From positions 2,695,659 through 2,759,658 of the forward strand of contig CP091278.1 in NCBI GenBank assembly GCA_021650895.1: 64,000 nucleotides of DNA. The letters run 5' to 3'. Of this stretch, positions 44,716 to 64,000 are shown in pieces; positions within the stretch are counted from its first letter, which is position 1; every line of letters begins with the position of its first letter. This DNA is from Candidatus Jettenia sp. Its GTDB lineage: Bacteria; Planctomycetota; Brocadiia; Brocadiales; Brocadiaceae. The notes beneath the pieces are model-generated. The model worked only from the letters and a program-made list of their open reading frames with translations, ran no database searches and was not told the DNA's origin. Both the position numbers and the translations under genes were made by a program.

Positions 44716-46056
44716 TTATCTGTTTTCTATCGTCTCTTTCAAACATTCTTCAAAGAGAGATAATGCAATATCTGCATCATTTTTTGAAAGGATTAAGGGT
44801 GGGCAGAAGCGGATTGCGCTGCGGCCGCAGGTCAATAATAAAAGTCCTTTTAAGAATGCCTTCTGGACGATACGATCCCGTTCTTCGATAGCATATTCTT
44901 TGGTCTCATTATCTTTTACAATCTCAATTGCCAGCATTAATCCTAAGCCCCTCACGTCGCCGATTATAGGATATGTTCGCTCCAATCTCTTTAATTCATT
45001 CATGATGTAGGCACCTTGTCTGGCGGCATTATCTATCAATCCTTCTTCGAGAAGCTTGATAGTAGTAAGCGCGGCCTGGCAGCTAACGGGATTACCTCCA
45101 AACGTACTTGCATGACTGCCCGGTATCCAATCCATTATTTTTCCCGATGCAACGGTGGCAGATAAGGGAAGTCCTGAGGCTATACCCTTAGCAAGGGTAA
45201 TGATGTCGGGAATTATGTCAAAATGTTCGGAGGCAAACATTTTGCCTGTTCTGCCCATGCCTGATTGTACTTCATCAGCAACATAGAGGATATCATAATC
45301 GCGTGTTAGTTGATACAATGCCGTATGAAATTCTTTTGGAGGCACAATATATCCACCTTCTCCCTGGATAATTTCAACAAAGATTGCTGCCACATCATCC
45401 GGAGATACCTTTGTTTTGAATAACTCCTCTCGTACCCATGTTACGCATGCCATATGACAATTATTGGGGGTTAAACCATAGTGACATCTATAGCAATATG
45501 CATATGGGATATGAATAACCTCTGAAATAAGAGGTAAAAAATGCCTGCGTTGGTTTAATTTACTAGCCGTTAGCGAAAGCGCACCCATGGTTCTTCCATG
45601 AAAAGCGTTGTAAAAGGCGATGACAATGTTGCGCCTGGTATGGTATCGCGCTAATTTAAAAGCAGCTTCTACCGATTCTGCGCCAGAATTCCCAAAAAAG
45701 ACTTTTTTTGTATGGGAGCCTGGGCAGATCGTAGATAGCTTTTCGGCTAAATGGATTTGCAGCGGGTTGTAAAAATCCGCCCCGGACATGTGAAGAAGGG
45801 TGCCTGCCTGGCTGGTAATTGATGATATGACTTCATCATGATTATGTCCGGTGTTGCAAACGGCAACTCCTGCCGTAAAATCAAGGAAGATATTATTATC
45901 AACATCCTCTACAAGCATGCCTTTTGTGCTTTTTACCACGAGTGGATAGCCTTTTGTCGAAGATGGTGAAATAAACTGTGTTTCCTTTTCCAGATATTGA
46001 ATTGCGTTAGGACCGGGAAGTTTCGTATGAATACGAGGATAATTTTTGAGTGACAT
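44716..46056 (-). CDS. Class III PLP aminotransferase (4-aminobutyrate / acetylornithine type)
   Basis: A 446-residue fold-type I aminotransferase. PLP-binding K290 (IITLAKGIASGLP), D261 (YVADEVQSGMGRTG), FFGNSGAESVEAA and FYNAFHGRTMGALS are present. A four-cysteine insertion (CYRCHYG..CHMAC, 188-204) is seen in a subgroup annotated as 4-aminobutyrate aminotransferase. The donor could also be putrescine, ornithine or acetylornithine, of interest given the arginine and agmatine genes elsewhere in the window. It stands 30 bases downstream of the duplicated-module gene. Confidence 0.88.
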   Translation of the reverse strand: MSLKNYPRIHTKLPGPNAIQYLEKETQFISPSSTKGYPLVVKSTKGMLVEDVDNNIFLDFTAGVAVCNTGHNHDEVISSITSQAGTLLHMSGADFYNPLQIHLAEKLSTICPGSHTKKVFFGNSGAESVEAAFKLARYHTRRNIVIAFYNAFHGRTMGALSLTASKLNQRRHFLPLISEVIHIPYAYCYRCHYGLTPNNCHMACVTWVREELFKTKVSPDDVAAIFVEIIQGEGGYIVPPKEFHTALYQLTRDYDILYVADEVQSGMGRTGKMFASEHFDIIPDIITLAKGIASGLPLSATVASGKIMDWIPGSHASTFGGNPVSCQAALTTIKLLEEGLIDNAARQGAYIMNELKRLERTYPIIGDVRGLGLMLAIEIVKDNETKEYAIEERDRIVQKAFLKGLLLLTCGRSAIRFCPPLILSKNDADIALSLFEECLKETIENR

Positions 46057-59678: not shown

Positions 59679-60791
59679 TTAGTATCTCATTTCATAAAGG
59701 CGCCGGGATGCAAGGTCAATCTTTGAGCGCATCTTGACATTGAAAATAATGGAAAGGGCAACAAAAGATGTAAGCATAGAGGATCCTCCATAGCTAATGA
59801 AAGGTAGTGTTACTCCTACGATAGGAGCTACTCCTAAAGTCATACCGACATTCACTACTGTTTGGGTTGCAAACATCGTGACAAGACCAATTACGACAAG
59901 TCTTCCATAGGGGTCTCGTGTATTCCTGGCAATACCGATACCACACGCAACGAAGGCGATGTAAAGAAGTAAGACAAGACAAGCCCGTAAGAATCCCCAT
60001 TCCTCGGCAATAACGGCAAAGATAAAATCGGTATGGCGCTCGGGTAGAAATTTCATCTGGTTTTGTGTGCCATTTCCCCATCCTGTTCCGAATAGACCTC
60101 CCGAACCAATGGCGATAAGAGATTGGAGCCTATGATAACCAGCTCCCCAATCAGTAGTTTTTTCAGGCCAAAGAAAGCCAATAATTCTCAACTTTTGATA
60201 CGATTTAAGCATAAACATCCAGAATAGTGGTGAAATAGCTAATCCTGTACCGATTAATATGAGGAGGTAAGAAAGCCGGATACCGGCAGCGTATAAAATG
60301 GAGAATAAGATAGGAACCAGAATTAACGCTGTACCCAGGTCTGGCTGTTTCATAATAAGTGCCATGGGTATAAATGCCAGAAGGAGAGAAATTCCTATAT
60401 CAAAGAGTCCCAGTCCGTACTTCTTATACCTGAGAAATCTTGCAAGGGTAAGAACCAGGGTGATTTTCATAAATTCAGATGGTTGGACAGAGAAAGAACC
60501 AATAGAGAACCAACGCTGTGAGCCTTTCACAGAGCCTCCAACACCTAATAATAAAATCAAAAGAAAAAGAACTGATGCGTAGATGATATATGCATAATGT
60601 TCAAATGAAAGGTAATCAAAATAAAGAAGGGTAAAAAAAAGGGTGAATCCCATTACAACCCAGATGATTTGTTTGAATAAAAATCTTTCGGACGATGCAC
60701 TCCAAACGAAAAATACCCCTATCGTTAAAATAGTGCACAGTATAAGAAATATCAGCCAATCAAAATTTCTTAGATTTACCTTACTTGACAT
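59679..60791 (-). CDS. rodA: RodA peptidoglycan polymerase (SEDS family)
   Basis: A 370-residue SEDS glycosyltransferase with about ten helices and the family marks KQPDLGTAL, GTGWGNGTQNQMKFLPERHTDFIFAVIAEEWGF and LPFISYGGSS. RodA polymerises glycan strands during elongation with PBP2, whose gene lies about 250 bases upstream. Its presence indicates a peptidoglycan wall. Confidence 0.97.
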   Translation of the reverse strand: MSSKVNLRNFDWLIFLILCTILTIGVFFVWSASSERFLFKQIIWVVMGFTLFFTLLYFDYLSFEHYAYIIYASVLFLLILLLGVGGSVKGSQRWFSIGSFSVQPSEFMKITLVLTLARFLRYKKYGLGLFDIGISLLLAFIPMALIMKQPDLGTALILVPILFSILYAAGIRLSYLLILIGTGLAISPLFWMFMLKSYQKLRIIGFLWPEKTTDWGAGYHRLQSLIAIGSGGLFGTGWGNGTQNQMKFLPERHTDFIFAVIAEEWGFLRACLVLLLYIAFVACGIGIARNTRDPYGRLVVIGLVTMFATQTVVNVGMTLGVAPIVGVTLPFISYGGSSMLTSFVALSIIFNVKMRSKIDLASRRLYEMRY

Positions 60792-61040: not shown

Positions 61041-62969
61041 CTAGGACGCCTGGTTTATTTCTGGAAATAAATAAGATAAAAGTTCTCTGGCAATAGGACA
61101 TGCAATGTCTGCGCCGTGTTTTGGTGTATGCTCCACGAGGATTACGAAGCAGTATCGGGGATTATCATAAGGAGCATAGCCGGCAAACCAGGCGTGGTTG
61201 TCATTTTGGCGCCTCGTTTCCGCTGTACCTGTTTTACCGGCGACCCTATATACATCCAATCCTCTGTCTTTTCCCGTTCCATAAACGATTACATTCTGAA
61301 GAGAGGTGCATATAACTTCGAGGATAGCAGGTTGTATAGATATTTTTTGTTTATTTTCAGAGGTAAAGGTTCTGATAACTTCTTCCTGACTATTTGTTAT
61401 TTTTAATAACACATGAGGCTGGACTAATGTGCCACCATTTGCTATAGCAGCATAAACACGAACCATTTGAAGTGGTGTCGTGAGCAGATTTCCCTGTCCA
61501 ATAGCAATGTTCATGGTTGATGGTGCGGTGACTTTCTTAGGCAAATTTCCATCTTTTTCATAAGGAAGGTCGATACCTGTTTTTTCACCAATCCCGAATT
61601 CTTTTGCAAGTGCGTATAAAGATTCTCCACCGAGAATCTTTGCAGTTTCGAAAAAGAAAACATTGCAGGAATAGGCAATAGCATCTCTTATAGTAACCAA
61701 ACCATGCCCGGTACCCGACCAGCATTTTAAAATGATATTTTTGTACTTAGTATAACCATGACATTCAAAAACGGTATCATCATTGATATGGTCTGCACTT
61801 AAGGTAGCAATTGCGGTAATAATTTTAAAAATAGATCCGGGAGGTAATGTGCCTTGTATAGCTCTATTGAGAAAGGGTTTGGAAGGCTGTTTGATAAGTT
61901 CGCCAAAATTCTCGTTAAGGATATTGGGATTAAAACGTGGGTTATTAGCCATAGCCAGTATCTCACCTGTCCAGGGATCCATAACGATAATTGTCCCCAT
62001 ATTTGCGCCGAGTGATTTTTCTGCGTAAGCCTGAATTTGACTGTCAATGGTCAGATAAAGGTTATTTCCAGCGACTGAGGGTCTTTCGAGTATTACCTTT
62101 TCAATCTGATTGTTTTTACAGGTAATTTCTTCAAATCTTTTACCACGCATTCCGCGTAATTCATTCTCATATTGTGCCTCAACGCCTGTTCTTCCTATCA
62201 TATCGTTTTCGGCATAACCCTCATACAGCAATGTGGAAGTTTCTGTACCAGTACTGCTCGATGCCAAAAGAAAATTATTCCAGTTATTACTATATTCTTT
62301 CCATTCATCTTTGTTCAGTTTACCCATATATCCTAAGATATGTGAGGCTGATTCTTGTTCTGGATAAACCCTTTTGGGTTTCGGAGTGATACGTATGCCG
62401 GGAAAGTGATCTTGTTTAACCTCTATCTGGATAACCTTCTCCCATGCAACATCAGAAATAACCGTATGATACTCGGTTTCCTCCTTAATTCTTATTTCTC
62501 TGCCCGCCCTTTGCTCAACATTTTGCTTAAGTCTTTCCACCTTTTCAACGACCTGTTTTACGTTGTTCAATAGCTTAGTCTGTGGAATTTCTAATAATCC
62601 GGATAATCTTTTTAACCATACATCCTGATTTTCGTGGCACTCTATACACGATTTTTTTGTCTGGTTGTGTATCTTTAAATCGGTAATACGGGAGATTGTT
62701 TTATTACTATGGGTACTGTAGCAATAGAGTAGGTATTTATATTGTACCGAGACATCAAAGATGTGCTGGTCCATAGCCAATACCCTTCCGTTTCTGTCAA
62801 AAATGGAACCTCGTGTAGTTTCCAGGAGGGATGTATCTATGCGGCGACTGTTGGAGATACCTTTATATTTATCACCTTCGATAATTTGAAGTTGAAAAAG
62901 GCGGACGGTAATGCCAATAAAAAGCAGGGCGAAAATAATTAATATAATTTTAAACCGGTAGGGATACAT
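61041..62969 (-). CDS. mrdA: Penicillin-binding protein 2 carrying a haem c (CXXCH) motif
   Basis: A transpeptidase of the elongation complex: N-terminal membrane anchor (7-28), pedestal domain, and transpeptidase domain with S379-x-x-K382 (PPGSIFK), S434-C-N436 and K579-T-G581 (AGKTGTAE). The catalytic set is complete. The unusual feature is KKSCIECHENQ at 105-115: C108-x-x-C111-H112 is a textbook covalent haem c attachment site in the extracytoplasmic pedestal, within an insertion of about 35 residues compared with normal PBP2 (DVSVQYKYLL.. to ..LSGLLEIP). 642 residues. It follows mreD by three bases and precedes rodA. Confidence 0.95.
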   Translation of the reverse strand: MYPYRFKIILIIFALLFIGITVRLFQLQIIEGDKYKGISNSRRIDTSLLETTRGSIFDRNGRVLAMDQHIFDVSVQYKYLLYCYSTHSNKTISRITDLKIHNQTKKSCIECHENQDVWLKRLSGLLEIPQTKLLNNVKQVVEKVERLKQNVEQRAGREIRIKEETEYHTVISDVAWEKVIQIEVKQDHFPGIRITPKPKRVYPEQESASHILGYMGKLNKDEWKEYSNNWNNFLLASSSTGTETSTLLYEGYAENDMIGRTGVEAQYENELRGMRGKRFEEITCKNNQIEKVILERPSVAGNNLYLTIDSQIQAYAEKSLGANMGTIIVMDPWTGEILAMANNPRFNPNILNENFGELIKQPSKPFLNRAIQGTLPPGSIFKIITAIATLSADHINDDTVFECHGYTKYKNIILKCWSGTGHGLVTIRDAIAYSCNVFFFETAKILGGESLYALAKEFGIGEKTGIDLPYEKDGNLPKKVTAPSTMNIAIGQGNLLTTPLQMVRVYAAIANGGTLVQPHVLLKITNSQEEVIRTFTSENKQKISIQPAILEVICTSLQNVIVYGTGKDRGLDVYRVAGKTGTAETRRQNDNHAWFAGYAPYDNPRYCFVILVEHTPKHGADIACPIARELLSYLFPEINQAS

Positions 62970-62972
62970 TGG

Positions 62973-63473
62973 TCACCTATCCCCAACTGAAAAAAGCCTT
63001 TGATTTGGTTGAAACTTGCCCAGTATCCAGAATAAAACAGGAATAATAACGGCCGTATATAATGAACAGATAAAGATTACCCATAGTGTCGGTAAAAGAT
63101 TTAGTGAACGAAAAGAGACGGCAACATATGCTGCATAGAATATATTATAAATAACCGAAAAAATAAAGGTAATCAAGACCTGGGTAATTAAATGTCCTTT
63201 ATACAGTATTCCCCTGATTGACCAGATAAGCAAACCTATAGCAACAAAAAATACGGAGTTTATTCCAAGGCTACTTTCTGAAAGCAAATCTTTTGATAAG
63301 CCTGTGAACCAATTGGTAATGGTATTTCGTTTTATATCTGTGAGAAAAGAATAAAATACTACCAATGAAAAATACAGATCAGGTACTGCAGACCCGATAG
63401 TAATCCATTTTATCATGGTCGATTGAAAGGCAGAAATGCATATCAGTATGCAAAAGAATGTAAACCACCGCAT
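62973..63473 (-). CDS. mreD: Rod shape-determining protein MreD
   Basis: A 166-residue membrane protein with about five to six helices, with PDLYFSLVVFYSFLTDIKRNT and GLSKDLLSESSLGINSVFF matching MreD. It links MreC to the elongation machinery. It sits in the canonical mreC-mreD-mrdA-rodA order. Confidence 0.9.
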   Translation of the reverse strand: MRWFTFFCILICISAFQSTMIKWITIGSAVPDLYFSLVVFYSFLTDIKRNTITNWFTGLSKDLLSESSLGINSVFFVAIGLLIWSIRGILYKGHLITQVLITFIFSVIYNIFYAAYVAVSFRSLNLLPTLWVIFICSLYTAVIIPVLFWILGKFQPNQRLFSVGDR

Positions 63474-63506: not shown

Positions 63507-64000
63507 CTAATTTGTAATGACTAATACACTCTCAATTTTTGAAATATTTACCATTGGCAATACTTTTACCGACCGGAAGAGTGCACCACCTTTTATTTCA
63601 TTTTGCATAACAGTGCCAATAGGCAAAGAGGGCGGATAAAGCCCACCTATGTCAGAAGAGACGATATTGTCTCCTTCTTTTAATTTCGCCCATCGTGGTA
63701 TATATTTTAATTGGCAAAAAGCGGTAGCATTTCCCTCCACAATTACTTGCTCCCGTGTTTGGAGAATTCTTCCCGGTATGCGGGAGGCTGGATCGGTAAT
63801 TAATTGAACTATACTGCTTCCACTCCCAACCGTAATGATCCTTCCAATCAGGGTATTATTTGATACCACAATATTATTGACTTTTACTCCCTGTTTTGAA
63901 CCCGCATTGATCGTTATGCTTTTTCTAAAGTTTGATGTATCATATCCGATAATATCCGCTGGTATCACGCTTGTTTTAATATTTTTATTCTCAATTTGGA
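63507..64000 (-). CDS. mreC: Rod shape-determining protein MreC, C-terminal part (continues beyond the window)
   Basis: The frame is open to the window edge, so the start is missing. The visible 160 residues are the extracytoplasmic beta-barrel domains of MreC: ADIIGYDTSNFRKSITINAGSKQGVKVNNIVVSNNTLIGRIITVG, SIVQLITDPASRIPGRI, and IVSSDIGGLYPPSLPIGTVMQ. MreC organises the elongasome by binding PBP2. Confidence 0.95.
   Translation of the reverse strand, partial: QIENKNIKTSVIPADIIGYDTSNFRKSITINAGSKQGVKVNNIVVSNNTLIGRIITVGSGSSIVQLITDPASRIPGRILQTREQVIVEGNATAFCQLKYIPRWAKLKEGDNIVSSDIGGLYPPSLPIGTVMQNEIKGGALFRSVKVLPMVNISKIESVLVITN

Follow-up and report, generated by a model that had tools for sequence, protein, structure and literature searches.

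The question raised by this locus is whether a wall-building enzyme of an anammox bacterium, penicillin-binding protein 2 (PBP2), carries a covalently attached haem. The window, by which we mean the whole stretch of 64,000 nucleotides analysed, comes from a Candidatus Jettenia genome of 3.82 Mb in a single contig, which encodes a hydrazine synthase alpha domain, and the host is therefore an anammox bacterium. The closest named record to the window PBP2 is from Candidatus Jettenia ecosi, with 96% PBP2 identity. The features that concern us are as follows, with fractions referring to PBP2 sequences of the order Brocadiales.

59679..60791, minus strand: rodA, SEDS glycosyltransferase and partner of PBP2 (TIGR02210, 376.8 bits against a cut-off of 336.7)
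61041..62969, minus strand: mrdA, insert-bearing PBP2 of 642 aa (TIGR03423, PF00905, PF03717)
62616..62618, minus strand: Trp118, nearly invariant, just past the CXXCH motif (58/60)
62619..62741, minus strand: additional part of the PBP2 head, spanning residues 77-117 or so (alignments and AlphaFold2 model)
62634..62648, minus strand: CIECH, predicted haem c attachment motif, residues 108-112 (C 60/60, C 60/60, H 59/60)
62667..62669, minus strand: His101, candidate sixth (distal) haem ligand (44/44 outside Scalinduaceae)
62757..62759, minus strand: Phe71, counterpart in the alignment of Phe71' in the hydrophobic zipper by which H. pylori PBP2 binds MreC (60/60)
62973..63473, minus strand: mreD, elongasome partner (TIGR03426, 39.9 bits against a cut-off of 34.85; PF04093)
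63507..63998, minus strand: mreC, elongasome partner, 5' end outside the window (PF04085, 143.5 bits; TIGR00219)

The open reading frame at 61041-62969 is that of PBP2/MrdA, with 519.7 bits to TIGR03423 (cut-off 455) and with the Pfam Transpeptidase and PBP_dimer domains. It lies in an elongasome gene context, with mreC (its reading frame still open at the window end) and mreD upstream of mrdA and rodA downstream, all on one strand. The catalytic SxxK (S379, K382), SxN (S434, N436) and KTG (K579, G581) residues are invariant in an alignment of 56 sequences. An earlier note on this DNA had placed CIECH at residues 108-112 of an intact PBP2, and the translation, the profiles and the catalytic residues bear this out. 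Full-length homology, catalytic motifs, the gene order mreC-mreD-mrdA-rodA and the fold are all shared with the PBP2/MrdA proteins of E. coli, H. pylori and T. thermophilus, and the anammox protein is a variant of PBP2 and not a new family. It differs from the known proteins in having about 32 extra head residues with a CXXCH motif, and in the three PDB alignments among the matches listed residues 99-135 or thereabouts are unmatched.

The AlphaFold2 model, made from a 56-row alignment, has a mean pLDDT of 88.5 and an N-terminal helix at residues 3-30. The insert is modelled, at a pLDDT of about 72-82, as short helices at 77-88, 93-96, 99-103 (with His101) and 108-111 (the motif), followed by one at 117-126. 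The best Foldseek matches are the PBP2s of Yersinia, E. coli, Campylobacter and H. pylori. The E. coli PBP2 head is about 32 residues shorter than that of the window PBP2; the earlier note had put the insertion at some 35 residues. The insert is predicted to lie outside the cytoplasm from the N-terminal helix of the model and, for the remainder, from PBP2 homology.

With regard to conservation, we sampled 62 Brocadiales genomes, of which 59 yielded 60 PBP2 sequences from five families. Those left out are G050 (N-terminal region cut), G054 (PBP2 not found) and G014 (frame break), and G053 is counted twice as it has two PBP2 copies. In G014 (L102) the frame is broken shortly past the motif, with CGECH itself encoded, and this is possibly an assembly error; the two copies of G053, which is of Scalinduaceae type, are different (L105, L110) and may represent contamination by a second strain.

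The alignment confirms that CXXCH is a conserved, order-wide feature of Brocadiales PBP2, with Cys108 and Cys111 in all 60 sequences and His112 in 59. Close relatives, whose lack of the motif had been set beforehand as ground for rejection, keep it throughout the order. The two X positions vary (entropy of 3.16 and 1.69 bits, the average for residues 77-125 being 1.94 bits), the first being K, I, G, R, E or others, and the insert as a whole varies fast except for C, C, H, Y77 and W118, mean pairwise identity being 32% for residues 78-107 as against 58% for the transpeptidase domain. Both synonymous codons are freely used for the three motif residues (TGC/TGT 31/29 for one Cys and 32/28 for the other, CAT/CAC 41/18 for His), so that selection is on the residues and not on the bases. 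The sole exception at His112 is G033, which has CRECR (codon CGT) in an otherwise normal PBP2; G032, of the same genus, has CKECH. In G033 (L029) either the axial His has truly been lost or a base was miscalled; unless the latter is the case, this His has proved dispensable on at least one occasion.

A lone CXXCH is not significant, since 2 of the 108 stop-to-stop ORFs of at least 90 aa in the window carry one, and on that count alone the PBP2 motif could have arisen by chance and have no function. Such a reading has a negligible probability given that C/C/H is retained in 59 of 60 sequences despite the 32% identity of the insert, and that a control motif lacks such conservation. The control is CYRCH of a cytoplasmic aminotransferase, in which Y-R is present in 30 of 30 orthologues and the His is lost in 8 of 30, a pattern with fixed X-X and dispensable His that is the reverse of that of the candidate haem motif. 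The chance origin is thus refuted by the order-wide alignment and the aminotransferase comparison together. The aminotransferase-like gene (window 44719-46056, minus strand) has further Cys residues after CYRC(H) (CYRCHYGLTPNNCHMAC), with CYRC present in 30/30 within the order, and this region may form a separate metal site or cluster of Cys residues.

In the case of genomes beyond the Brocadiales, the motif was found in G065 (family f8, same class but another family), which has two CXXCH in a homologous PBP2 insert, with an upstream EHK, ...LSSMREHKEVGPPAPDGSNCAQCHRPG...KGRCLECHSPD. It was not found in the PBP2 of other members of the class, namely G064, two genomes from f6 and seven from f9, and the f9 PBP2s have a far shorter stretch at the insert position. 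Nor was any CXXCH seen in the PBP2s read from elsewhere in the Planctomycetota (about 39) or in a set of about 40 PBP-like loci (L061-L100), of which almost all belong to other phyla. A DNA pattern (DRxGxxLA and then CXXCH, gap 110-140), which recovers 53 of the 62 known loci, was run over 392 Planctomycetota genomes. All of its PBP2 matches were in Brocadiales, and about 14 further matches elsewhere were not PBP2-like by eye; this pattern is blind to G065, which has no DRxG, and to long-insert forms, so that rare variants elsewhere are possible.

In the PBP2 tree G065 clusters with f9 and not with the Brocadiales (support 99/96), and the motif label requires three changes, G033 being one. The motif either goes back to the class ancestor, with several later losses, or arose twice within a shared insert. 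Our judgement from the sequences favours a single origin, because the framework YxNLLY...HK...CxxCH is common to Brocadiales and G065.

The earlier note had also asked whether a distal Met or His is conserved, and this was borne out in part. His101 is conserved in all 44 sequences outside Scalinduaceae, but it is absent in 16/16 Scalinduaceae sequences, and no conserved Met was found in the 60-sequence alignment. In Scalinduaceae Cys86 is present in 16/16, and the His101/Cys86 difference could mean that one distal haem ligand has taken the place of another, or that the fourth ligand of a zinc site has been swapped. The spacing from H101 to C108 ranges from 6 to about 28 residues.

The insert resembles the class III and c7 multihaem cytochromes (PF02085, PF14522) in having a His some residues ahead of CXXCH and short helices, but it has one haem motif only (two in G065) and is grafted into a wall enzyme. 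A Pfam cytochrome domain was considered for the insert and rejected, as matches are below threshold: the only Pfam matches of the window insert are to class III cytochrome (E 0.0044; 17.8 bits, below the curated 22.9) and c7 (E 0.021), and the G065 insert alone matches c7, doubled-CXXCH, cytochrome c and c3 profiles at E 0.0014-0.006, again under the curated cut-offs. We give these matches little weight, because among shuffled inserts in which CIECH was kept 3 of 10 also match PF02085, if more weakly (E 0.031-0.13).

Attachment of haem c requires a maturation system, and the assumption that the host has one proved sound: the System II genes known from anammox bacteria are likewise encoded in the window genome (G000), as a ResB-like gene at C1:3040255-3041946 and CcsA at C1:3042170-3042742. 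ResB was detected in each of the 11 Brocadiales genomes tested (including G033) and in G065, and CcsA in all four ResB-positive genomes tested from the motif-bearing order and G065 (G000, G033, G061 and G065). CcsA was not found in 7 of 12 class members in which the motif was not seen, namely 6 of 9 f9 genomes and G063, the 12 including G069 and G070, whose PBP2 was not read, and several of the genomes compared being incomplete so that absences are soft. As G062, G064, G067 and G068 have CcsA and lack the motif, possession of the ligase does not imply the motif, and from gene content a haem c ligase looks necessary yet not sufficient for it. The window genome has two more CcsA-like (PF01578) genes, at G000:C1:350209-350817 and G000:C1:1054405-1055016, apart from the CcsB-CcsA pair at 3040255-3042742, and these could serve another membrane.

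There is a difficulty in where the haem would be attached, and it is the main one. Published work localises the cytochromes c of anammox bacteria and their maturation to the anammoxosome (PMC2881027, PMC4222556), and System II (CcsA-CcsB) to its membrane (PMC4222556), whereas PBP2 should be at the cytoplasmic membrane and a haem-bearing form would require maturation there. As the motif also occurs in G065, which is not a member of the anammox order, the trait may perhaps be independent of an anammoxosome. Haem on PBP2 would thus be a test of whether anammox cells mature cytochrome c at the cytoplasmic or the anammoxosome membrane.

We suggest that a c-type haem is likely to be attached to the PBP2 head, with the upstream His101 probably the second ligand outside Scalinduaceae, and we think it probable, with some reservation, that haem attachment is a selected feature of Brocadiales PBP2. 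Support, all of it from sequence, comes from the order-wide C/C/H with variable XX and mixed synonymous codons, and from the two CXXCH with an upstream His in the homologous insert of G065. The case is weakened by the loss of His in G033, the lack of His101 in Scalinduaceae, the variable spacing and the anammoxosome placement of maturation.

The same residues could instead form a structural zinc site, in which Cys108, Cys111, His112 and His101 (Cys86 in Scalinduaceae) would staple the insert. There are indeed four candidate ligands, the fourth swapped from His to Cys between families, and such exchange is common in zinc sites. However two adjacent ligands on one zinc, as C111-H112 would be, are geometrically unusual, the spacing to the fourth ligand is widely variable, G065 has a second CXXCH unit, the insert has only cytochrome profile matches, weak as they are, and the motif-bearing genomes tested have the haem c ligase, all of which makes zinc improbable. 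Just as improbable is a disulphide between the CXXC cysteines of the head, whether structural or redox-active, in which the His would tune thiol reactivity. It has a precedent in the class B PBP SpoVD of Bacillus, in which a disulphide near the active site is linked to control of activity (PMC5626683). The anammox site differs in belonging to the head and, on our reading, in having haem attached. The Cys pair is indeed present in 60/60, even in G033 where the His is Arg, but His112 is kept in 59/60 over five families and the best structural matches are all PBP folds. Thioredoxin-type motifs have characteristic XX residues, and here XX is unconstrained.

A further alternative accepts haem attachment and overlaps our preferred reading as a sub-case of it: the haem would be just structural, or an ancestral leftover, with no role in regulation. 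The drift of the insert in all but C, C, H, Y77 and W118, and the loss of His in one species, are as one would expect for this. Conservation over five families and the second motif of G065 argue for use, and f9, in which 6 of 9 genomes lack CcsA, has lost the insert yet keeps PBP2, so the PBP2 fold does not depend on the insert. We think it somewhat unlikely that the haem is without regulatory function.

With regard to what a regulatory haem might do, the position of the insert is suggestive. PBP2 of H. pylori binds MreC by a hydrophobic zipper to which Leu69', Phe71', Tyr127' and Tyr134' of the head contribute (PMC5626683), and Phe71' aligns, by way of C. jejuni PBP2, with the invariant window Phe71. 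The insert thus comes directly after a strand belonging to the MreC-binding surface of H. pylori PBP2; it begins six residues past one half of the zipper, with the other half coming later in the sequence. In E. coli the L61R change in the N-terminal region of PBP2 activates RodA (PMC7793260). GT51 polymerases were not found in 12 of 12 Brocadiales genomes, an absence already published for Kuenenia (PMC4432595), and RodA-PBP2 is thus without a known class A backup. It is because of the insert position and the missing GT51 polymerases that we prefer MreC-dependent regulation as the function.

As we envisage it, the System II ligase (CcsB/ResB-CcsA) would link a single haem to Cys108 and Cys111. 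The proximal ligand of the iron would be His112 and the distal one, except in Scalinduaceae, probably His101. The haem site would adjoin the head/anchor surface that opens for MreC, and the redox or ligand state of the haem (for example NO or O2) would bias PBP2 towards the open, RodA-activating form and so gate the elongation synthase in cells that lack GT51 polymerases. That haem state gates RodA/PBP2 through MreC-dependent opening is speculative and could well be wrong. The fuller proposal, that anammox PBP2 is a haem-based sensor in which haem c state controls MreC binding and RodA activation, with cytochrome c assembly also at the cytoplasmic membrane, is more tentative still. We found no report of a haem-bearing penicillin-binding protein in the open literature, subscription papers being outside this coverage. 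With haem attached, a central enzyme of wall synthesis could sense redox or gas chemistry directly, in cells that have no class A PBP as a substitute. The near-universal retention of the motif suggests that anammox wall growth may be tied to such chemistry.

One minor observation relates to the class members outside the anammox order. G064 and G065 (L135, L136) have 11 and 16 matches respectively to hydrazine synthase alpha (PF18582), mostly in large proteins, and relatives of this domain are thus widely expanded in these two genomes.
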